A DNA stretch of 48,399 nucleotides. Origin: Deltaproteobacteria bacterium. Lineage in GTDB: Bacteria > Desulfobacterota > DSM-4660 > Desulfatiglandales > HGW-15. A program made the translations under genes and the position numbers. The stretch spans positions 1 to 48,399 of the forward strand of contig JAFGFM010000217.1 of assembly GCA_016931115.1 (NCBI GenBank). The letters run 5' to 3'. Below, in pieces: positions 35,142 through 46,690 of this stretch. Position 1 is the stretch's first letter, and each line of letters begins with the position of its first letter. The notes beneath the pieces were generated by a model that was given only the letters and a program-made list of their open reading frames with translations, ran no database searches and was not told the origin of the DNA.

Positions 35142-36374
35142 CTAATAGGGGTTCAGCTCCCTTTCTTTCGGAAAGACCGGAAGATACCTGTATGATAATG
35201 AAAAGAGCAGAAAGCCGTAACCTATCACGGCAAGCGCAATTGCCCATTCCTGCCATGTGGGCAGATAACTCCAGAACCTCTCAAAGGGCATTACAGGGAT
35301 AGCAAGTGTCACTATTACAAATACAAATCTGTTCAGCACTATCCCCGCACAGTTCATCAGAGAGGCGATTATAAGGCACAACCTGTTTTTTCTGAGAGAA
35401 GGTGTAAGGAGTAAAATAGCAGGTATTATGCCGAACAGGCCTATCTCACAGATAAGCATCCATATGCCGTAGGGGCCTTCCCTGTAGAAATCCATCAACC
35501 TCTGCCCTGCCTGCGGGATTACACCATATATCCATCCGGCTGTATCCGCTATCTTCAATATTATATACAATGCAAGTAAAAATCCTGAGATCTTTGCGAG
35601 GAGATCAATTGCTTTATCAGGTACAAGTTTTTTCCTGGTGATTTTCTCTGTCAGTTTTGTACATAAAATTGTAAAGCATGGGCCGGCAGCAATGGCTGAC
35701 AGTATGAAAAGAAAAAATGTCCATGGCCAGATATAGAAACCATACCGGGCTGCAAAAGGTCTTGCATACATGACGCCGAACATCCCGCCTAATGAACCCT
35801 GGTGGAAGAATGATAGGAATGTCCCTGTAGCAGCAAATATGGCCATTATGTGATGAAGGTTATGCCCGAAAAGATGAAACTCCCTAACCGTATTCAGTTT
35901 TTTATTTTCAAAGATAATGGGGATATACTCTATTGTTAGCACACACAGATAACAGGTAATGCAGAATGAAACCTCTACAAGCATTGAATGTATGTTTGCA
36001 TGCCAGAAGATAAACCATCCCCTGACTGGCTGACCAATATCTATACCGAGCATTCCCATTGCCCCGGAATAGCAGATAAAACCGATTATTACTGCAACAT
36101 TGATGATATCCTTTAATTCCTTTTTCCCGATGATATATGTCAGAAACCCGGTAAAGAAGGCCCCAGCGCCAAGGGCTATTACTGCAAGGTCAGCAACAAT
36201 CCACAATGCGAATGCAAATATATTACTCATATTTGTCTGGTTAAGCCCAAAAATAAGACAAAGCAGGGCAGATACCCCTCCACATGCAAGAAGAAGCAGC
36301 CAGGGTAATGTCCAGAGGAAAAAGGCTGGCGCTGAGCATCTTTTTGTTCCTTCCGGTATTAAAGCGGAATCCAT
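35142..36374 (-). CDS. qrcD: Qrc complex membrane subunit QrcD (NrfD family)
   Basis: Integral membrane, quinone-interacting subunit of the NrfD/PsrC family. About ten hydrophobic segments span 410 residues, with conserved-looking charged or His residues in membrane loops (HANIHSMLVEVSF near 125, HNLHHIMAIFA near 170). GGAGGAGG precedes the ATG. It is the last large subunit gene of the cluster, 15 bases after qrcC. Assignment to Qrc and not to another NrfD-type complex rests on the whole four-gene order. Confidence 0.88.
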   Translation of the reverse strand: MDSALIPEGTKRCSAPAFFLWTLPWLLLLACGGVSALLCLIFGLNQTNMSNIFAFALWIVADLAVIALGAGAFFTGFLTYIIGKKELKDIINVAVIIGFICYSGAMGMLGIDIGQPVRGWFIFWHANIHSMLVEVSFCITCYLCVLTIEYIPIIFENKKLNTVREFHLFGHNLHHIMAIFAATGTFLSFFHQGSLGGMFGVMYARPFAARYGFYIWPWTFFLFILSAIAAGPCFTILCTKLTEKITRKKLVPDKAIDLLAKISGFLLALYIILKIADTAGWIYGVIPQAGQRLMDFYREGPYGIWMLICEIGLFGIIPAILLLTPSLRKNRLCLIIASLMNCAGIVLNRFVFVIVTLAIPVMPFERFWSYLPTWQEWAIALAVIGYGFLLFSLSYRYLPVFPKERELNPY

Positions 36375-36389
36375 CTTGAAACCTCCTCC

Positions 36390-37202
36390 TTAGATATCAT
36401 TTCCTGAAACAGGTTTGATCTGATCAGGCAGATAATTGTCAGCCAGTTTTCTTACCCACTCTTTTGAAGAGATGTAATATACCTTTGGCTGTGTATTTAG
36501 CTTTTCCAGAAGCCTGAATGTGTTTTTGTTCTTTATCAACCTGGATACCATGTGATCCGGATTATTGAGGTCCCCAAAGGTTATTGCCCTTGCAGGGCAT
36601 GCCTCGGTGCATGCGGTAATATACTCATATTCCCTTAAATCCCTTCTGTTTTCAGCATACGCCTTTGTTTTGGCCCTCATCAGACGATGGTGACAGAAGG
36701 TGCATTTTTCTATTACACCCCTCATGCGTGGGGAGACCTCGGGTGAGAGGGAGCGTTCCATGCCCTTTGAAAAGGGTTTAAATGATGAATACCCGTCCCA
36801 CCAATTGAAATACCGTGCGTGATAGGGGCAGGCTGCCTGGCAATACCTGCATCCGATGCATCTTGCATATATCTGGCTCACAATGCCTGTATGAGGGTCA
36901 AGCTCAGTTGCGGTTGCAACGCACACCGATACACATGGGGAATGGTGTCCTCCGCGGCCATCTTCATCGCAGTGCATGCATGGTCTTGGAAAGTAGCATA
37001 CCTCTGTATCAGGGAATGGTCTGCCATTATCTATTTTATATAACTGCATCCATGCAATGCTTCGCTCCTTGTCAGACTCATCAGCGCGGACAGTAACATT
37101 GTTTTCTGCGGCGCAGGCAACCATGCATGTCCCGCAGCCGGTGCATTTATCCAGGTCTATTACCATTCCATATTTATTATCATGGCCTTCTCTCTTTTCC
37201 AT
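36390..37202 (-). CDS. qrcC: Qrc complex iron-sulfur subunit QrcC
   Basis: Electron-transfer protein with four ferredoxin-type cysteine groups: CTGCGTCMVAC near residue 20, CMHC with two further C near 75-90, CIGCRYCQAACP near 112, and CTFCHH with CTEACP near 165-200. The clusters would pass electrons from QrcA/QrcB to QrcD. A TTG at 37214 is also open, but GAGG lies seven bases before the ATG at 37202. No signal peptide is seen; export with a Tat partner is likely. Confidence 0.9.
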   Translation of the reverse strand: MEKREGHDNKYGMVIDLDKCTGCGTCMVACAAENNVTVRADESDKERSIAWMQLYKIDNGRPFPDTEVCYFPRPCMHCDEDGRGGHHSPCVSVCVATATELDPHTGIVSQIYARCIGCRYCQAACPYHARYFNWWDGYSSFKPFSKGMERSLSPEVSPRMRGVIEKCTFCHHRLMRAKTKAYAENRRDLREYEYITACTEACPARAITFGDLNNPDHMVSRLIKNKNTFRLLEKLNTQPKVYYISSKEWVRKLADNYLPDQIKPVSGNDI

Positions 37203-37214
37203 GTTCTGCCTCAA

Positions 37215-39677
37215 TTAAATAGCTTTACTGATTTTTACCGGTGTGTACCACCATGCAGGCTGACCGCTCAGCGGATCAATATTAGCGCCCATAAGTCTGT
37301 TCGGGTTGCATCCTTTGCCAAAGGAAAAATCATCATATGCCATGTGTCCGAAACCCATGGGCATAAATACAACACCGGGCATGGCGCCATCAAAAAGATG
37401 CACCCTGACGCTGGCACTCCCTTTTGCTGATGTCACTTGAATTTTATCACCCTCTTTTAGTTTATATGCCAGGGCTGTTTCAGGGTTGATCTCCACAAAT
37501 GAGTCATCACCTTTAAGCTGGCTGTCAAATAGGCTTTTGTTAAGATAAGGGGGGTTGGGAAGCCATCCGCTTGAAAGATTTATCATTTCATAGGGTATCA
37601 TCATAAGAGGATATCCCTCATCTGACTTTTCTGATCCCCTGAAGTGCGGCATATAGAGGGGCTCTTCTAATGTGTCTGATGCTGGTTTTGCTGTGGATGC
37701 CTCAATAAGGGATTTGAGCCTGCTGCTCATAAACTCAAATTTGCTCTCCGGGGCGTTAAAGATATCAGCATTATTTTTAATATGAGAGAGGGGGTTATAC
37801 CAGAACCCGCCATTCTTGAGCTGTTTCCACATGCCTTTAAAATCTTTAAAATCAGGAGTGACCCCTGTGCCGGCACTGATAAACTTAGACGGTGTATCTG
37901 AAGGGTTATATTTACCTGAACCCTCTTTGCAGTCAAAAAGCCCCTGCACCCTTGATTTTATGGCCTCTTCCAGGGTCTTGAACGGGAATGAATTTGCTGT
38001 TGTACCGCCGATCATCTCTGCAAGTCTTATGATAACATCACCTGTATTTCTTGTATCATACAAAGGGGCAACCGCCGGTTGTGTCATGCCATAAAAGCTG
38101 TACTGGAGTGAGGGGCATTCCATGTCATCGATCTTCTCAAGATATGTGTGATCAGGAAGAATAAGGTCTGCCATCATTGCTGTTTCATCCAGGTAGGGTG
38201 AGAAACTCACTATGAACGGAATCTTTGCAAGGCTCTGGTAAAAATCACCACCGTCCGGAATAGTAAATGCCGGGTTTGATGAGAATACCAGGAGTGTATC
38301 GACCTCCTGCCCATCTCCTTTAAGGATGCTCTCTGCAATGGCACTGGTCTGGCTTGAGTACTCCTTCAAAACCGCATTACCCAGGGTCAAACCTGGCTTT
38401 TTTAATGATTCGGATGCTATTTCATCTACCTCAGGGGCAGGAAGTTCACTCAGCGGCGGCCTTGCACCAATGAGCACACCTCCGGGCCTGTTTATATTTC
38501 CTGTAAGGGCATTGAGTGCATGCACTGCCATGAATTCATTGATATCGCCGTTTAAAGTCCCCTTACCCTTTCCACATATGGCAATGGGGGTCTTTGCGCC
38601 TGCAAAAGCCCTTGCAGTAGATATAATCATATCAGGCCCTATGCCTGTTATCTCTGAGACCCTGTCAGGGTTATAGTTTTCAACAATAATATCCCTGAAG
38701 CCTCTCTGTTTTATGCCTTCTGCCTCATGTTCGAAAAAACCGGCAGTGCAGTTTTCCACATATGTTTTATTATACAGGTTTTCTCTTATGATTACGTTTG
38801 CTATGCCAAGTGCCAGGGCTGTTTCAGTGCCTGGCCTTGCAGGTATCCATTTATCTGCCTTTGAGGCGGTATTTGAGGCCCTTGGCTCCACCTGGTATAT
38901 AGTGGCATTTTCCCTGTTTTCTGCTGATCGCCACAGGCCCCAGGTATTAAGGAGACGCCCTGGTGCACCCCATCCCTCCAGCAGACCGCAGCCGAAACTT
39001 AATATGAAATCGGAGTTTTCAAGATCATAGGCAACCGGTGTGTCAGAGCCGTACATGAGTTTTGAGACAGCGGCTGTCTCTCCTTCCATGGATGGTAATC
39101 TTATATAGTTGTTGCTGCCTATGGCCTTCATAAATCTTTTTATCATGAGGGATACTGTTGATCCTGAGTTATAGCCATCAATGGCTACAATGGAACCGGC
39201 CTTTCCATTGCTTCTGAGTTCGAGTATCTGATGGGTCAGGGCCCTGAGCGCCTCGTCCCAGGATAGAGGTTCAAACTCGCCTGTACTCCGTGACCCCACC
39301 CTTTTTAGAGGGCTTTTACAGCGTATGTTTTCATTATATAGAAGCTGCAACCCGCCCATACCAAGCGGGCATAACCCTCCGGGATTAACCGGGTGGTCAG
39401 TTCGACCCTCTATCTTTACGGCCCTGTCACCTACCTTCCTTACCTCTATTCCGCATGCACCAGGACATAATGTGCAGTGTGATCTTACCTTTGTAAATTT
39501 ACCTGTTTCAGGGACAGGCACCCAGGGCAGGTTCTGGGTGAAAATAGCTGTATCATCAATAAGTTTCCAGGGCAGGGGAGAAAGGCCTGTACCTACAGCC
39601 CCGCCAATGGCAAACTTGATAAAATTCCTTCTGTTCACAGATAATAGTTCGGTAAACTTCTTTTTATCTGAACCCAT
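37215..39677 (-). CDS. qrcB: Qrc complex molybdopterin-family subunit QrcB
   Basis: Large periplasmic protein of the molybdopterin oxidoreductase superfamily. A Tat signal RRNFIKFAIGG lies near residue 20. A 4Fe-4S motif CTLCPGAC...C lies near 70-110, followed by the domains typical of the family and the C-terminal dinucleotide-binding-type beta barrel. In Desulfovibrio the QrcB protein is known to lack molybdenum; the usual metal-ligand position here also shows no obvious Cys or Sec. GAGG precedes the ATG at 39677. It starts just past the end of qrcA. Confidence 0.9.
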   Translation of the reverse strand: MGSDKKKFTELLSVNRRNFIKFAIGGAVGTGLSPLPWKLIDDTAIFTQNLPWVPVPETGKFTKVRSHCTLCPGACGIEVRKVGDRAVKIEGRTDHPVNPGGLCPLGMGGLQLLYNENIRCKSPLKRVGSRSTGEFEPLSWDEALRALTHQILELRSNGKAGSIVAIDGYNSGSTVSLMIKRFMKAIGSNNYIRLPSMEGETAAVSKLMYGSDTPVAYDLENSDFILSFGCGLLEGWGAPGRLLNTWGLWRSAENRENATIYQVEPRASNTASKADKWIPARPGTETALALGIANVIIRENLYNKTYVENCTAGFFEHEAEGIKQRGFRDIIVENYNPDRVSEITGIGPDMIISTARAFAGAKTPIAICGKGKGTLNGDINEFMAVHALNALTGNINRPGGVLIGARPPLSELPAPEVDEIASESLKKPGLTLGNAVLKEYSSQTSAIAESILKGDGQEVDTLLVFSSNPAFTIPDGGDFYQSLAKIPFIVSFSPYLDETAMMADLILPDHTYLEKIDDMECPSLQYSFYGMTQPAVAPLYDTRNTGDVIIRLAEMIGGTTANSFPFKTLEEAIKSRVQGLFDCKEGSGKYNPSDTPSKFISAGTGVTPDFKDFKGMWKQLKNGGFWYNPLSHIKNNADIFNAPESKFEFMSSRLKSLIEASTAKPASDTLEEPLYMPHFRGSEKSDEGYPLMMIPYEMINLSSGWLPNPPYLNKSLFDSQLKGDDSFVEINPETALAYKLKEGDKIQVTSAKGSASVRVHLFDGAMPGVVFMPMGFGHMAYDDFSFGKGCNPNRLMGANIDPLSGQPAWWYTPVKISKAI

Positions 39678-39685
39678 ACAAAACC

Positions 39686-40417
39686 TCATTTATGGCACGT
39701 GAAACAGGCATTGTTTTCCTCATGCCCTTTTTCTTTGTGACATGCAGCGCAGTCATCCATCTTCATGCTGTCCCATGTATCTTTTTTTAACCCGGAGATC
39801 TTTTTGCCCCATATATTCCTGCTGTAGCCTGATATGCGGTTTTTCTCATATGCGGGAAGTACCTGGTTCTTTCCCCTGTTACCATGACATGTAGTACACT
39901 CAAGCTTTCCCAGTTCTATGTGGGCAATATGAGAGAAATAGACACAATCAGGCTGTCTTGAATATGAAAGCCAAGGGATTTCTCTCTTATTAGTAACATA
40001 TTCATTTATCAGCAATTCCTCTTCTTCTGATTCGCCCAGAGGAAAATCATCGTCCTTATGGCACTCTGAACATACCCCGATTTCAGGTATGCCTGTAAAT
40101 GTGCCGTCATTTCTGAATGAGTGGCAGTAAAGGCATCTCTCTGTCTCTGTATCACCCTGAATTTCACTGACAATTTCCGGATCCATGTGAAGGGCATGGT
40201 TGAAATTCATGGGCTGCGTCTGTTTTGAATACAGCAGGGCCGGAAAGAAAAGCCATCCGATAATCAGGGCAGGAACAAGCCCTGCCGCAAAATATACAAG
40301 CCCTATTTTAAAAGAAGAGGAAAAAATGGTCTTAACTAGTGCCTTTATTTTATTTATCAGAGATAAGAGCGGTCCTTGACCGGGTGTTTTTCCGGAGGGA
40401 TCTCTTTGGTTTTCCAT
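39686..40417 (-). CDS. qrcA: Qrc complex multiheme cytochrome c QrcA
   Basis: Membrane-anchored periplasmic cytochrome of 243 residues. One transmembrane segment lies at about 36-58. Five CXXCH heme sites are visible (CLYCH, CSECH, CTTCH, CAACH, CFTCH). A single-cysteine segment CVYFSH near 160 lies between the second and third sites. From Desulfovibrio work, QrcA accepts electrons from type I cytochrome c3 fed by periplasmic hydrogenases and formate dehydrogenases and is reported to bind six hemes. Its stop codon overlaps the AUG region of the next gene. Confidence 0.9.
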   Translation of the reverse strand: MENQRDPSGKTPGQGPLLSLINKIKALVKTIFSSSFKIGLVYFAAGLVPALIIGWLFFPALLYSKQTQPMNFNHALHMDPEIVSEIQGDTETERCLYCHSFRNDGTFTGIPEIGVCSECHKDDDFPLGESEEEELLINEYVTNKREIPWLSYSRQPDCVYFSHIAHIELGKLECTTCHGNRGKNQVLPAYEKNRISGYSRNIWGKKISGLKKDTWDSMKMDDCAACHKEKGHEENNACFTCHK

Positions 40418-41245: not shown

Positions 41246-42511
41246 CTACATGTTTTCAGCTATTGATACGACCCGGTCACCCAGCATGTTCACATAGCTG
41301 CCTGACTCATTATCATACCAGCCATATATGACTGCCTGGGTGATTGAGACCTTGGCATATGGCAGATCCATTTTAGAAATTAATTCCGGCGGTATGCCTG
41401 AGACCTTTTTAAGGTCAATGGTGACATCAGCGGTTCTGGTATGGGTCTCATTACCCTCAATGATGGCCGCTGCCTTTGGCACACCTATGATATCGCTTGA
41501 GACATTCTGCTTCTCGGTATATTGAAGATATTTATTAGGATCATTTTTTGCGGTCTCTCGGTAAATGCTGTTTATGGTATCCCTTCTTATGGGCTCACCC
41601 GGGTCCTCCTGCAGGTTCACCACCATTATTATGAGAGACCCTGTTGTAAGCGGAACACGTACAGATTCCGCAATAAAGCCTATCTGTTTCATCTCTGGTA
41701 TCACATGTGCAAGTGTGCCTGCTGCGCCCGTTGTTGTGAGTATGATATTGTTCATGATGCTTCTGGTCTTTCTCAGGTCTGTAGCGCCTGCCTTGGGCGG
41801 TTTATCCAGCACCTCCTGTGAGCTTGTCATGGCGTGAATTGTCGCCATTGATGCTGATAGTATTCGTTTTGGCCCGTATGTATCCAGAAGGGGTTTGATC
41901 ATATGTGCAAGGCATGTGGTTGTGCATGATGCGTTTGATATCAGATTATGACGCCTGGGGTCATATGAATTTCCGTTTATCCCCATTACTGTTGTTACTG
42001 CATCTTCAGGCATGGGCAGGCTTTTATCCTTGATCTTGAAGGGCGCAGATACTATTACCTTGTGAGCGCCTGCCTCAAGGTGCCCCCTTAATGCGCCTCC
42101 CTTGCTGTCACCCGGTTTTGTGGGGTCTACAAACTCACCTGTTACATCAATCACCGCCTGGACATTATGATCCGCCCATTTTATCTCCCTGGGGTTCCTG
42201 CTCTCCTTAAGAAAGGTGACCTTTACACCATCAATATTCATAACCCCCTTTGATTCATCCATCTCCTGAATAACGCTTGATGCATTGTATCCGTATAGGT
42301 GTTTATGCAGCCAGCCATATGTGGAATCCCTTTCTACATAATGGGCAAGGTCTTCCATAGAGTTTCCCACTGATCGCCCCATGTTTACAACTATCTCCCT
42401 GAAATATTTCCTGCCTACATGGTGCCAGAGGGTCAGTTTGCCTATTCGGCCCAGGCCGTTGATGCCAAGTACCAGGTCACTTTTTTTTGCATACATCCCT
42501 TTTTGTTCCAT
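41246..42511 (-). CDS. gap: Glyceraldehyde-3-phosphate dehydrogenase, long form
   Basis: Interconverts glyceraldehyde 3-phosphate and 1,3-bisphosphoglycerate with NAD(P). The Rossmann GINGLGRIGKL lies at residues 17-27, the catalytic Cys in SNASCTTTCLAHM near 190, the partner His in SASMATIHAMT near 225, and WYDNESGSYVNML near the C-terminus. At 421 residues it is about 85 longer than classical Gap, with insertions in both domains; long forms exist in several proteobacteria. AGGAGG precedes the ATG and lies in the final codons of the upstream dikinase-like gene, three bases away, so the two are translationally linked. Confidence 0.95.
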   Translation of the reverse strand: MEQKGMYAKKSDLVLGINGLGRIGKLTLWHHVGRKYFREIVVNMGRSVGNSMEDLAHYVERDSTYGWLHKHLYGYNASSVIQEMDESKGVMNIDGVKVTFLKESRNPREIKWADHNVQAVIDVTGEFVDPTKPGDSKGGALRGHLEAGAHKVIVSAPFKIKDKSLPMPEDAVTTVMGINGNSYDPRRHNLISNASCTTTCLAHMIKPLLDTYGPKRILSASMATIHAMTSSQEVLDKPPKAGATDLRKTRSIMNNIILTTTGAAGTLAHVIPEMKQIGFIAESVRVPLTTGSLIIMVVNLQEDPGEPIRRDTINSIYRETAKNDPNKYLQYTEKQNVSSDIIGVPKAAAIIEGNETHTRTADVTIDLKKVSGIPPELISKMDLPYAKVSITQAVIYGWYDNESGSYVNMLGDRVVSIAENM

Positions 42512-42514
42512 TTT

Positions 42515-45500
42515 TTACCTCCTTGACATTTCTTCTATTTCAAGTTTACCCATATATATTGAACCTTCTCTGCCATCAATGCTCAGCCAGTCACCGGTTT
42601 TAAGGTGAATCTGTTCTATGGAGCAGCTGCTGTCACGCTCCATGCAGACCAGATTAGGGCTTCCAACCACACAGGTCTTCTCCAGCCTGTGCGCAACTAT
42701 TGCCGCATGGGAGGTTGACCCTCCTCTTGCAGTGAGCAGCCCGTCACTCTCAAATATCTCCTGGATATCGTCAGGGACAGTATCTCCCCTCACCAGTATC
42801 AGTGGTGTTTCAGGCTCGGTTTTTCTGTATGCCCTGATCTCCTCAAGGTTGAATACCACCCTGCCGCTCATTGCCCCGCCGCTTACCCCTATGCCGTGCC
42901 CTATAAACCTTGCGTTTGTATCAGGTTTGCCGACAAATGATAATACCTTTTTCCCATGCCTGATTGCCATATCACGTGTCTGGAGGAAATAGAGGTCCTT
43001 TTCTTTACTTGATTCAAATGTAAACTCCATCTCCTGTGGGCTCCAGTTTTTCTCATATATAAGCTCGCTCGCACAACTCTTCATGGCGTTGTATATCTCA
43101 GGAAAAGAAATCTGTAATGAACTCTCTACATCCCTGTTTTCAATCTCAGCCTGTCTTTCTGATAGAGGAAGGGTATTCACAAGTCCTGACACCACATCCT
43201 CTCCCTGGTTGCCCAATGTATAATCACCCCACAGGGTCACAAGGCCGCCTGAAAGCCTGGGATTATGCGTAAAGAGAACACCTGAGCCTGAATCCTTGGC
43301 CCTGTTGCCAAATACCATTGACTGGATAATTACTGCTGTTCCCCAGTCATCAGAGAGCTTCATGATTTTCCGATATGCCTTTGCCTTGCCTGTGTTCCAT
43401 GATTTGAGCACTTTGTCTATTATGATGTAGAGCTGCTTAACAGGTGATTCTTCAAGCATGATACCTTGCCCGGAAATAAAATCCCTGTACTTAAATGCAG
43501 TCTCTCTCATCTTTTCACCAGTAAGGTCTATTTTATGGAGCACATTGCGCTCCTCCTTTGCCCTTCCGATAATATCATCAAAGTCATTCCTGTTCAGACC
43601 GAATGCCATGCCGTATGACTGTAAAAACCTCCTGTAGCAGTCCCAGGCAAACCATGCATTCCCCGTGATATTAATTATTCCATGTACTATCTCTTCATTG
43701 ATTCCAACATTCAGGAATGTATCCATCATGCCGGGCTGTGAGATAGGCGCCCCGCTTCTTACAGAGAGGAGCAGGGGTTTTTCAGGGTTACCGAAAAATC
43801 TCCCTGTCTGTTTTTCAATCCCTGATAACTCCCTTTCCACCTGTTTTCTGAAATTTATCTCTGCGGGCTGGTACCCCTCTATTATCTCCCAGTACCTGTA
43901 GACCTCTGTTGTTATAATAAAACCGGGAGGGACCCTGAAACCATTCTCATGCAGGCTTACAAGGTTATACCCCTTGTTGCCCATGTGTATTACCCCTGAG
44001 ACAGAGGGGTTGGGGGATGCTATGGGTGAGATGGCCTTCTGTGGATCATAATTGAGGAGCAGGTGCAGTTTTTCATTGGGCAGTTCATCAGCCTGCCTGA
44101 AGAGTGTGCTCATGATCCTGGTCAAAAACAGATCAAGCTGCTGAAGGCCCAGGGCAAAGGCTATCCTTTCCCTTAAAAAGACCTCTGACACCCGGTGAGT
44201 AAGCCTCTCCCTTTCAAATAATTCGCCCTCTGGGTTATACTTGGGCAGAAGTGATTCTTTGGGAAGCTTTGTTATAATTTTTGTCAGGTTCTCTTCATGG
44301 ATGGAGTTAAAGTAATCATTTACAAGGTTGCTCACTGCCTGTGAAAATCCCCTGAAGATATCGATAAACTGGGTGAATGTAAAACCCCTTACCCTGAGCG
44401 AATGGCCCAGGAGGTCAAGCTGTTTTTCTATCTCTGATGAGATGATCCCGTCAAGCCTCAGTGCCCTGTAAAAGAGTATCAGGTAATCATTGATCCTGAA
44501 AAAGGTCTCACGTGTGATCAGAGCAAGGTCAGTCTCCTGCACAAGGTCATCAAAAAGGGTATTAACAAAGGATTCCAGCCTGAATGTCATCCCCAGGGCA
44601 TCAAATTTTTTTTCATGATAACTGCCATACATGGATGGTATATCAACTGTAAAGTGGCGTTTATGATAGATGTCCTCCCTTATCTCATATCTCTCCTGTG
44701 AAAGTATTATCCCCTTTAATTTTTCAAGATAGGCGAGGAGATCATTTATCTTTGAATAGGGGTCTTCCTGTTTCAATGCCTCCTTGAGGAGGTTTATTTC
44801 AGGGAATGAGCCTGCTGGCAACTGGTTTACATAGCCTTCCAGTTCAAGTGAATCAATGGAATATTTCTGCACAAGGAGCCTGTAGAAAACAACAGAAAGC
44901 TCAAGCCTCTCTTTATCAACAGGCTTGATGCCGGATATCTCCTTTATGGCATTTATATCAAGATCAAGGAGATCCTTTATGTTATGGAGCCCTTTCTTTT
45001 GAAAGAGTTCATTAATCAGCAAGTGAACACCGTCAAAATAGGGGCCTTCCTCTTCGACCTGCATGTATATGTCAGGTGGCAGGTACTCCTCAAGGCCATC
45101 TCTTTCTTTTGTGAGCCAGAAATGGAGCATTGACTCCATCAGGCCAATGATCCTGTTGCTGCTTTCAACATGGCTCTGCTTGCGCAGAAAGTGTACTAGT
45201 GCATCCTTCCTGAAGGTTATTTCATCGAGCCTTGTTGATATATCCCTGAGCTGTCCCTCTGCGCCTATTTCATTAAAATAGGCTGGAAAGAGCCTGGTAA
45301 GCTGTTTAATAAGGTTGTATACGCCTGCAATATCACTGTTCAAAAGGTTTGTGATATCCCTGGGAAAAAGGTCAGTATCCTTTATATATACCCCCCCGAT
45401 AGAGAGATAGATAATCATGGATGATAGCAGCTTTTTTGACCATGCAGGGTTTATTTCAATGATCTCAAGCCATGTCCTGATATTGAGGATATGGGCCATA

Positions 45501-46690
45501 TTGACCTTTGCCTGCCAGTCATTGCCAACCCCTTTAAAATCAGGGGTCTGAAAGCCCAGCTCCATTACGCTCTCAAGAAAAAAATCGACCAGTTCGCTTT
45601 CGTCTGTCCTGTAAATGGCATTCCCCATATTCCCTACACAGTTAAGCGCAGTTCCAGGGTAGAGGTTTACGCTCTGCTTCAGTATTCCAAAGGTCTTGAG
45701 GATCAAAGGCTGTAGATTTTTGGGCTTTTCAGTGTTTATAAGCAGGGTTAAGGTCCTGTTTACCTCCCTGAGTGTCTCTTCATGTATTACATTAAGCCCG
45801 TCAGTATTCATGATATGAAACAGAAAGATGAGCTTCCAGTATTGCCCTCGCCCTGTTTCTTCACCCTTTTTAAAGAGCAACCTGGGGATATTCCTGTAAT
45901 GATCTGCTATCTGCCTGTATCCGGGGAGGCTTATCAGTACCTTAAACAACTTCTTTTTATCATCTTTAAGATCGTGGATATTCCTTTCCAGTGTTTCCTT
46001 AAGTTTTTTCAGCTCCTCATGTGATACGTTGGCAAAAATCTCATCCAGATCATTTTTAGCTTCAACAGGTAAGCCGGCCTCATTTATAAACCATTCCAGA
46101 GGGTCCTTATGCCCTGCCCAGAAATCATATGATCTCTTGAGATACCTTGCAAGAAGGTTATTTGCAGCGGTCAAAACAGGATCATCATCAGTTATTTCAG
46201 CTAAGGGTGAGATGATCCGGTTTATCTGGTAAAAGCTTTTCACAAACAGGAGAAAACGGTCATCATTAAGGTCGCATATCTCTTTCAGGCCATGCTCAAT
46301 TACCGGTAAAAAGCTGGCCAGGTCTTCATTCGCCTCATTGATAATCTTCTGAATGTATACCAGGAGGTTGTCAGCCCCATCCTGATAAACTGTTGTGTCC
46401 TGTGATTCTGTAATGGTGTCAAGAAAGATATCAACAAACAGGCTTGCGGCTATGGGCCCCTTTTCATGCCCCTTTAAAAGATGGAAATAATCAAGGGAAT
46501 AACCCCTTGCCTCTTTTATAATGAATCGCCAGTTTTTGTATGGGTGGCACAGCTCTGTTATAAAGACCTTGAGGTTCTCAGTAATCCCGGTGTACCTTTC
46601 CATAACCTCCATAAGGATATGGTATTCCTCCCGGATGATCACATCAACCCGGCTGCTCTTTATATTTGCCTCAAGGGCATTAGACGGCAT
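42515..46690 (-). CDS. PPDK-like dikinase without TIM barrel, large unknown N-terminus (1391 aa)
   Basis: The C-terminal third carries a pyruvate, phosphate dikinase-type ATP-grasp domain (about 890-1240; GNKGYNLVSL, SVRSGAPISQPGMMDTFLN, QSMVFGNRAKDSGSGVLF, and a LYFLQTRD end block) and the swivelling phosphohistidine domain (about 1270-1370; TARGGSTSHAAIVAHRL, with the phospho-His). The chain ends about 70 residues after the His, so the C-terminal PEP/pyruvate TIM barrel, over 300 residues in true PPDK or PEP synthase, is absent. The first 880 residues are mostly predicted helix with no recognised domain. Gap follows three bases downstream. The phosphate acceptor is therefore unknown; it could be a partner protein, or a substrate bound by the N-terminal region. 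Confidence 0.88.
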   Translation of the reverse strand: MPSNALEANIKSSRVDVIIREEYHILMEVMERYTGITENLKVFITELCHPYKNWRFIIKEARGYSLDYFHLLKGHEKGPIAASLFVDIFLDTITESQDTTVYQDGADNLLVYIQKIINEANEDLASFLPVIEHGLKEICDLNDDRFLLFVKSFYQINRIISPLAEITDDDPVLTAANNLLARYLKRSYDFWAGHKDPLEWFINEAGLPVEAKNDLDEIFANVSHEELKKLKETLERNIHDLKDDKKKLFKVLISLPGYRQIADHYRNIPRLLFKKGEETGRGQYWKLIFLFHIMNTDGLNVIHEETLREVNRTLTLLINTEKPKNLQPLILKTFGILKQSVNLYPGTALNCVGNMGNAIYRTDESELVDFFLESVMELGFQTPDFKGVGNDWQAKVNMAHILNIRTWLEIIEINPAWSKKLLSSMIIYLSIGGVYIKDTDLFPRDITNLLNSDIAGVYNLIKQLTRLFPAYFNEIGAEGQLRDISTRLDEITFRKDALVHFLRKQSHVESSNRIIGLMESMLHFWLTKERDGLEEYLPPDIYMQVEEEGPYFDGVHLLINELFQKKGLHNIKDLLDLDINAIKEISGIKPVDKERLELSVVFYRLLVQKYSIDSLELEGYVNQLPAGSFPEINLLKEALKQEDPYSKINDLLAYLEKLKGIILSQERYEIREDIYHKRHFTVDIPSMYGSYHEKKFDALGMTFRLESFVNTLFDDLVQETDLALITRETFFRINDYLILFYRALRLDGIISSEIEKQLDLLGHSLRVRGFTFTQFIDIFRGFSQAVSNLVNDYFNSIHEENLTKIITKLPKESLLPKYNPEGELFERERLTHRVSEVFLRERIAFALGLQQLDLFLTRIMSTLFRQADELPNEKLHLLLNYDPQKAISPIASPNPSVSGVIHMGNKGYNLVSLHENGFRVPPGFIITTEVYRYWEIIEGYQPAEINFRKQVERELSGIEKQTGRFFGNPEKPLLLSVRSGAPISQPGMMDTFLNVGINEEIVHGIINITGNAWFAWDCYRRFLQSYGMAFGLNRNDFDDIIGRAKEERNVLHKIDLTGEKMRETAFKYRDFISGQGIMLEESPVKQLYIIIDKVLKSWNTGKAKAYRKIMKLSDDWGTAVIIQSMVFGNRAKDSGSGVLFTHNPRLSGGLVTLWGDYTLGNQGEDVVSGLVNTLPLSERQAEIENRDVESSLQISFPEIYNAMKSCASELIYEKNWSPQEMEFTFESSKEKDLYFLQTRDMAIRHGKKVLSFVGKPDTNARFIGHGIGVSGGAMSGRVVFNLEEIRAYRKTEPETPLILVRGDTVPDDIQEIFESDGLLTARGGSTSHAAIVAHRLEKTCVVGSPNLVCMERDSSCSIEQIHLKTGDWLSIDGREGSIYMGKLEIEEMSRR

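Follow-up and report, generated by a model that had tools for sequence, protein, structure and literature searches.

The window examined here, meaning the whole stretch of DNA that was analysed, comprises 48,399 nucleotides from a deltaproteobacterium of the Desulfobacterota (contig JAFGFM010000217.1, assembly GCA_016931115.1). Two adjacent genes, both on the minus strand, are the subject of this report. The first (42515..46690, ATG start codon) encodes a barrel-less dikinase of 1391 residues, called DIK here, identified from its open reading frame, its Pfam and NCBIfam matches, and orthologs of identical architecture. The second, gapL (41246..42511), encodes GapL, a long-form type I glyceraldehyde-3-phosphate dehydrogenase (GAPDH) of 421 residues. 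Only three bases (42512..42514), counted from the reading-frame coordinates, separate the DIK stop from the gapL start, as noted in an original prediction made from the sequence alone.

DIK contains three parts, from amino to carboxyl terminus: an all-α-helical region (residues 1-880; 44051..46690); an ATP-grasp of the type found in pyruvate phosphate dikinase (PPDK; residues 903-1240; 42971..43984); and a swivelling phospho-His domain (residues 1261-1389; 42524..42910). All lie on the minus strand, as do the DIK elements described below. The His domain follows the ATP-grasp directly. The chain stops shortly past the His domain, and does likewise in every ortholog whose carboxyl terminus was read.

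Catalytic domains and the missing barrel

The ATP-grasp is recognized by a Pfam PPDK_N match (E 4.5e-29), alignment to solved PPDKs, residue conservation, and fold; the mobile His domain, by a PEP-utilizers match at residues 1296-1376 (E 9.8e-17). These are the only Pfam families over their cut-offs in DIK. Residues 903-1240 and 1261-1389 together align with solved PPDKs (best phmmer E 4.3e-78). The His motif, GGSTSHAAIVAHR, includes GGSTSHAA and aligns with the PPDK catalytic motif (GGxTSHAA), predicting His1328 (codon 42707..42709) as the phosphorylated residue. In 64 orthologs, His1328 is kept in at least 97%, as it is in at least four of five proteins from a sister family described below; ATP-grasp residues Lys906, Arg978, Glu1222, Gln1237, and Arg1239 are invariant or nearly so, and Glu1220 is conserved. 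Profile matches, alignments, and conservation thus bear out the view that both PPDK-type domains, with SHAA at the phospho-His, are intact. It is well supported that all of the sequence determinants for ATP-dependent histidine phosphorylation, a predicted activity, are present.

An AlphaFold model of residues 371-1391 has a predicted local distance difference test score (pLDDT) of 88. Its ATP-grasp and His domains superpose on the PPDK structures 1kbl, 1dik, and 1ggo at 3.2-3.4 Å over about 545 columns; for 1kbl, the root-mean-square deviation (rmsd) is 3.3 Å over 549 columns. The same model fits 2r82 and the plant PPDK conformers only at 10-15 Å. In crystals of the 1dik type, Lim et al. in 2007 reportedly found the His domain packed against the nucleotide domain. 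The solved carrier domain 2fm4 also matches the DIK phospho-His domain, with a template-modelling (TM) score of 0.83 of target.

PPDK (EC 2.7.9.1) continues into a TIM barrel that binds phosphoenolpyruvate (PEP) and pyruvate. DIK has no PEP-utilizers_C match, confirming that the chain ends where this barrel should begin. Nor does the barrel lie elsewhere. A profile search of the genome for PEP-utilizers_C found only an Enzyme I-like open reading frame of 599 residues and a separate, full-length PPDK in a 920-residue frame; a stand-alone barrel gene was absent from this genome and from seven relatives. A cryptic barrel within the amino-terminal region, the other arrangement that would make DIK an ordinary split or permuted PPDK, is ruled out by an AlphaFold2 model that is all-helical. 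The same genome encodes a further PPDK_N protein (G000:C122:11454-12548, locus L001), in an 862-residue frame without a PEP-utilizers_C match; possibly this is another non-pyruvate dikinase.

DIK falls outside the curated families most like it. It scores 377.9 bits against the NCBIfam PPDK model TIGR01828 (cut-off 843.45), and 294.5 bits against NF004531 (cut-off 456), a short PPDK model; it therefore belongs to neither family as curated. We take NF004531 (PRK05878) to be the model that probably covers VadK, a mycobacterial protein discussed below. Against the rifampin phosphotransferase model NF041857, the score is 35 bits (cut-off 999).

Comparison with characterized proteins is nevertheless instructive. 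DIK and PPDK share the order of ATP-grasp and swivelling phospho-His domain, with 30-33% identity over about 545 columns; DIK differs in lacking the barrel and in carrying an 880-residue helical domain in front. The glucan and phosphoglucan water dikinases use the same two phosphotransfer domains for another acceptor, but place the His domain ahead of the ATP-grasp and carry amino-terminal carbohydrate-binding modules; no such module was found in DIK by Pfam. VadK (Rv1127c) likewise combines the PPDK ATP-grasp and phospho-His domain without a PEP domain, and likewise is tied to one central pathway: it autophosphorylates on His422 and interacts with enzymes of the methylcitrate cycle (PMC13400623). 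VadK, however, is a 52-kDa truncated PPDK without a helical domain, and has other partner enzymes in other phyla. In rifampin phosphotransferase and the HpeHI, PpsAB, and CreHI systems, an ATP-grasp and a His domain deliver phosphate to an acceptor other than pyruvate, which sits in another domain (PMC4844700, PMC12167813). Their acceptor domains are placed elsewhere and have no detectable similarity to the proposed one of DIK, which lacks the rifampin-binding domain that sits between the ATP-grasp and His domains of rifampin phosphotransferase. The DIK ATP-grasp is closer to that of PPDK than to those of rifampin phosphotransferase or the two-component dikinases.

DIK is a member of a conserved family, not a truncation. 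Across 61 related genomes, the identity of orthologs ranges from 94% to about 33%, and nearly all are full length; retention of the full architecture over this range argues against chance or artefact. Searching GTDB genomes with the amino-terminal alignment turned up at least 577 relatives, and the best 80 come from the Desulfobacterota and Nitrospirota. In an evenly drawn sample of 247 genomes from the window's phylum, 68 encode DIK. Among the genomes sampled, about one in four in one phylum and a tenth in another carry the family.

Carriage is enriched with dsrA, which is present in 59 of the 68 DIK genomes vs. 61 of the 179 others. A strict link to sulfate reduction nonetheless was rejected: dsrA gave no match in the genome from which the window comes, and DIK therefore does not require it. 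Elsewhere in the window (35142-40417, minus strand) is a cluster for a cytochrome c, a molybdopterin oxidoreductase, an Fe-S protein, and NrfD, similar to Qrc, a complex of sulfate-reducing bacteria.

GapL, a nearly obligate partner

GapL matches both type I GAPDH domains over their Pfam cut-offs (Gp_dh_N, PF00044; Gp_dh_C, PF02800), but scores 326 bits against the NCBIfam model TIGR01534, below the cut-off of 367.2. Like short GAPDHs, it keeps the catalytic Cys (ASCTT), the catalytic His (in a THA-type motif), and the DLRK region. Unlike them, it is about 85 residues longer, with conserved insertions, and it differs in the region around the cofactor as well as at several conserved positions. 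In particular, the ordinary N-D pair, whose Asp specifies NAD, is replaced by N-x-G-R, suggesting that GapL probably uses NADPH.

The original prediction tied a barrel-less PPDK-like protein to the Gap step, and the tie proves much stronger than the sequence alone could show. With a threshold of E <= 1e-80, GapL was called in 69 of the 247 genomes, and 67 of these are DIK genomes (67/68; Fisher p 5.5e-57, a value that overstates the evidence, because the genomes are related by descent and not independent). Every exception is an incomplete genome: G170 (76% complete), G065 (79%), and G136 (62%). In the Nitrospirota, the 15 genomes with a full-strength DIK match are exactly the 15 with GapL.

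Of the 67 shared genomes, 51 have DIK and GapL no more than 9 kb apart on one contig. The remaining 16 do not: contig ends account for some of these, and in others the genes are on large contigs. A survey of gene neighbourhoods, one of the checks proposed at the outset, placed GapL downstream, in the same orientation, at 58 of the 60 GTDB loci that had sufficient flanking sequence, with a median distance of 63 bases; both exceptions carry GapL elsewhere. Moreover, two relatives of the window (L024 and L025) contain a divergent DIK and a divergent GapL, both of which group with another clade with full support. This looks like joint replacement, in which the pair was exchanged as a unit. Together, these patterns of co-occurrence and linkage make a functional bond between DIK and GapL well supported. 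In one locus (L077, Desulfosarcina cetonica), GapL occupies two frames and appears frame-shifted, through either a sequencing error or a real break.

In many families the pair is embedded in a longer gene order: rpoN, hpf, (ptsN), rapZ, an EIIA-like gene, rimI, a short gap, DIK, gapL, pgk, tpi, and secG, or parts of it. (Names of flanking genes were taken from the starts of their sequences, not from a family search.) In many families among loci L146-L185, and especially in L156, L171, and L184, the DIK operon continues the rpoN-hpf-rapZ, or nitrogen-phosphotransferase system (PTS), cluster.

A short GAPDH accompanies GapL in nearly all DIK genomes. However, GapL is the only GAPDH found in three genomes of one genus (G088, G124, and G280, reported as 100% complete), so GapL can carry the GAPDH step of central metabolism. 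In G124, DIK is split into two frames, of 652 and 809 residues. Phosphoglycerate kinase (PGK) is encoded in 55 of 55 DIK genomes tested, ruling out the notion that DIK replaced a lost PGK.

One member of the family very probably has appeared in print, under a name that its domain content does not support. In Dissulfurimicrobium hydrothermale Sh68, a strain that does not ferment glucose, four genes were listed under gluconeogenesis: pgk (LGS26_08510), two for GAPDH (08515 and 08525), and LGS26_08520, annotated as phosphoenolpyruvate synthase (PMC8780430). The order fits gap - DIK - gap - pgk, pointing to LGS26_08520 as a DIK protein; the phosphoenolpyruvate synthase label is doubtful, because that reaction needs the missing barrel. 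A genome that apparently represents this species (G159, locus L171) carries gapL and pgk twice, with matching scores (C1:505491-507924 and 1777503-1779936), and only one copy adjoins DIK.

The amino-terminal helical domain

The original prediction found about 880 residues of no recognized family ahead of the ATP-grasp, and proposed structure prediction and profile searches of this region. Both leave it without a known family. For residues 1-897, Pfam gave nothing above a cut-off and the PDB gave no significant sequence hit, and the amino-terminal regions of 16 orthologs share no Pfam family. (Weak Pfam matches to Viral_Hsp90, VPS51, and SapB_2 were dismissed as chance, being below cut-offs or not common to members.) The AlphaFold2 model of residues 1-897 (pLDDT 84; predicted TM score, 0.76) is nearly all helix. 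In a Foldseek search of the PDB, it found only karyopherin and HEAT-type solenoids, with a TM score of about 0.15 and rmsd above 30 Å. Kinship with importins and exportins was rejected on these values, which reflect generic helical-solenoid likeness.

Conservation in this domain is rich in charged residues. Among the 64 orthologs, conserved positions include Asp438, Arg482, Thr486, Asp489, Arg503, Lys504, His507, Lys609, Glu672, Lys677, Arg678, His679, Ser686, Tyr691, Glu693, Lys695, and Arg704. Most of these fall in two blocks of invariant or near-invariant positions: block 1, residues 438-512 (45155..45379), with the pattern DTDLFPRDIT...IGAEGxLRxxST..DE...RKDxLxHFLRKQSHVESSN; and block 2, residues 672-704 (44579..44677), with the pattern E..Y.KRH...IPSMYGSYHE.KFDA.....R. 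We propose that the α domain may be the acceptor-binding domain of DIK.

A sister family helps to sort these residues. Found in six Nitrospirota genomes (L192-L197), its members are about 1460-1510 residues long where complete, and about 27% identical to DIK from residue ~355 to the end, with an amino terminus of their own. In these six genomes, no gap adjoins the sister gene and no GapL is encoded. The sister proteins retain His1328, together with the residues of the ATP-grasp and the greater part of the charged α-domain set, including part of block 1. Since this set is common to proteins with and without GapL, it is more easily understood as an acceptor active site than as a docking face for GapL. 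Seven residues are restricted to the GapL-linked family: Thr439, Asp440, Glu478, Gly479, Glu490, Glu509, and Tyr688. These may relate to a particular acceptor or to GapL itself. Neighbours of the sister gene vary: a HAD-type hydrolase lies upstream in L193, and a large glutamate synthase-like open reading frame is present in L195 and L196.

Models for DIK function

We tentatively favour a model in which DIK is a dikinase-type phosphotransferase, with an acceptor site in the α domain, that makes 1,3-bisphosphoglycerate for GapL in gluconeogenesis. Activity, acceptor site, acceptor, direction, and cofactor are all inferred, as follows. The ATP-grasp would bind Mg-ATP and, being PPDK-like, probably inorganic phosphate (Pi) too. 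A phosphoryl group would pass to His1328 of the swivelling domain, with release of AMP and pyrophosphate (PPi) or Pi. The swivelling domain then would move to a putative basic pocket in the α domain, formed by Arg482, Arg503, Lys504, His507, Lys677, Arg678, and His679 with Asp438, Asp489, Glu672, and Glu693. There it would transfer the phosphate to a small carboxylate, most likely 3-phosphoglycerate, generating 1,3-bisphosphoglycerate. Finally, GapL would reduce this product to glyceraldehyde 3-phosphate, probably with NADPH.

The choice of 3-phosphoglycerate is favoured because it suits the charged site, fits the pgk and tpi operon, and mirrors PPDK at the neighbouring bottleneck: DIK would act at the PGK step of gluconeogenesis as PPDK does at the pyruvate kinase step. 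The model also draws on the three genomes in which GapL is the only GAPDH, and on the listing of these genes under gluconeogenesis in D. hydrothermale. In its most specific form, the model describes a phosphoglycerate dikinase (ATP + Pi + 3-phosphoglycerate -> AMP + PPi + 1,3-bisphosphoglycerate, via phosphohistidine), with an acceptor domain of unrecognized fold, whose product is channelled to its dedicated, probably NADPH-dependent GAPDH. So fully specified, the proposal is rather unlikely to hold in every part.

Several points weigh against a biosynthetic role of this kind. With PGK universal among the DIK genomes tested, the supply of 1,3-bisphosphoglycerate is already provided for, and pgk itself is frequently the neighbour of gapL. 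The strict tie to GapL, not to any GAPDH, requires channelling or some other reason. Part of the α domain is modelled as a HEAT-like solenoid, and folds of this kind frequently serve in protein binding. Finally, the best barrel-less PPDK precedent, VadK, is reported as a regulator (PMC13400623).

The main alternative, a close rival though itself less likely than not, is that DIK regulates GapL: it would autophosphorylate on His1328 and control GapL through binding or phosphorylation, much as was proposed for VadK, a PPDK-derived, autophosphorylating kinase that lacks the PEP domain and interacts with pathway enzymes (PMC13400623). Here, the α solenoid would hold GapL, and the conserved GapL-specific insertions would provide the contact surface. 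Pairing that remains strict even when the two genes are unlinked suits a regulator well, as does the solenoid-like amino-terminal fold. On the other hand, many of the α-domain invariants are common to the sister family in genomes without GapL, so the site they form was not made for GapL. Moreover, VadK has no helical domain, and DIK scores below the cut-off of the model to which VadK likely belongs.

An improbable variant of the enzymatic model is that DIK makes a different acyl phosphate or other phosphorylated metabolite that GapL reduces or otherwise requires, which would make GapL a specialized aldehyde dehydrogenase. This would explain why GapL is so strictly paired even though PGK is universal and nearly all genomes also encode a second, short GAPDH, and it accords with the distinctive cofactor region of GapL and with its changes at several conserved positions. 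A triose substrate is indicated, however, by the three genomes in which GapL is the only GAPDH, and by the frequent placement of gapL within a pgk-tpi operon.

Still less likely is that DIK stands in for PTS Enzyme I, passing the His1328 phosphate to HPr or to EIIA proteins of the rpoN operon. The idea draws on the proximity of DIK, in several families, to rpoN-hpf-rapZ and to EIIA-like genes, and on the finding that 15 of the 19 genomes without an Enzyme I amino-terminal domain carry DIK (Fisher p 1.7e-6). Those Enzyme I-less genomes, however, are confined to few families, and the one examined in detail (L184) lacks an EIIA-like gene in the interval from rapZ to gap; 53 of 68 DIK genomes also have Enzyme I; and DIK itself has neither the HPr-binding domain of Enzyme I (PEP-utilisers_N, PF05524) nor the PEP barrel by Pfam. 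A split, permuted, or decayed PPDK, for all the close resemblance of the ATP-grasp and His domains to PPDK, is refuted by the barrel-gene search in this genome and seven relatives, the separate 920-residue PPDK, and a single-frame architecture kept across two phyla, and is scarcely credible.

Barrel-less relatives of PPDK already were known, through VadK, as were dikinases with other acceptor domains, through rifampin phosphotransferase (PMC4844700) and HpeHI (PMC12167813). New here is a dikinase family that combines a proposed acceptor domain, not described before, with an almost obligate GAPDH partner. DIK is described in none of the family databases searched, and a literature search that excluded most subscription journals found no paper about the family or about any phosphoglycerate dikinase.

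Lower glycolysis and gluconeogenesis are considered completely understood, yet DIK is tied to the GAPDH step there. If DIK is an enzyme, it would provide a new reaction or route at the GAPDH and PGK step, in bacteria that live near the energy limit and build sugars from small carbon compounds. If in particular it is a phosphoglycerate dikinase, anaerobic sulfur-metabolizing bacteria would have a second way around phosphoglycerate kinase during gluconeogenesis, one that is strongly driven and could conceivably be used reversibly with PPi. If instead DIK is a regulator, it would follow VadK as the second instance in which a PPDK has come to control a central pathway. Whichever holds, a wrong reaction is likely to be assigned to DIK when the metabolism of the organisms that carry it is reconstructed.

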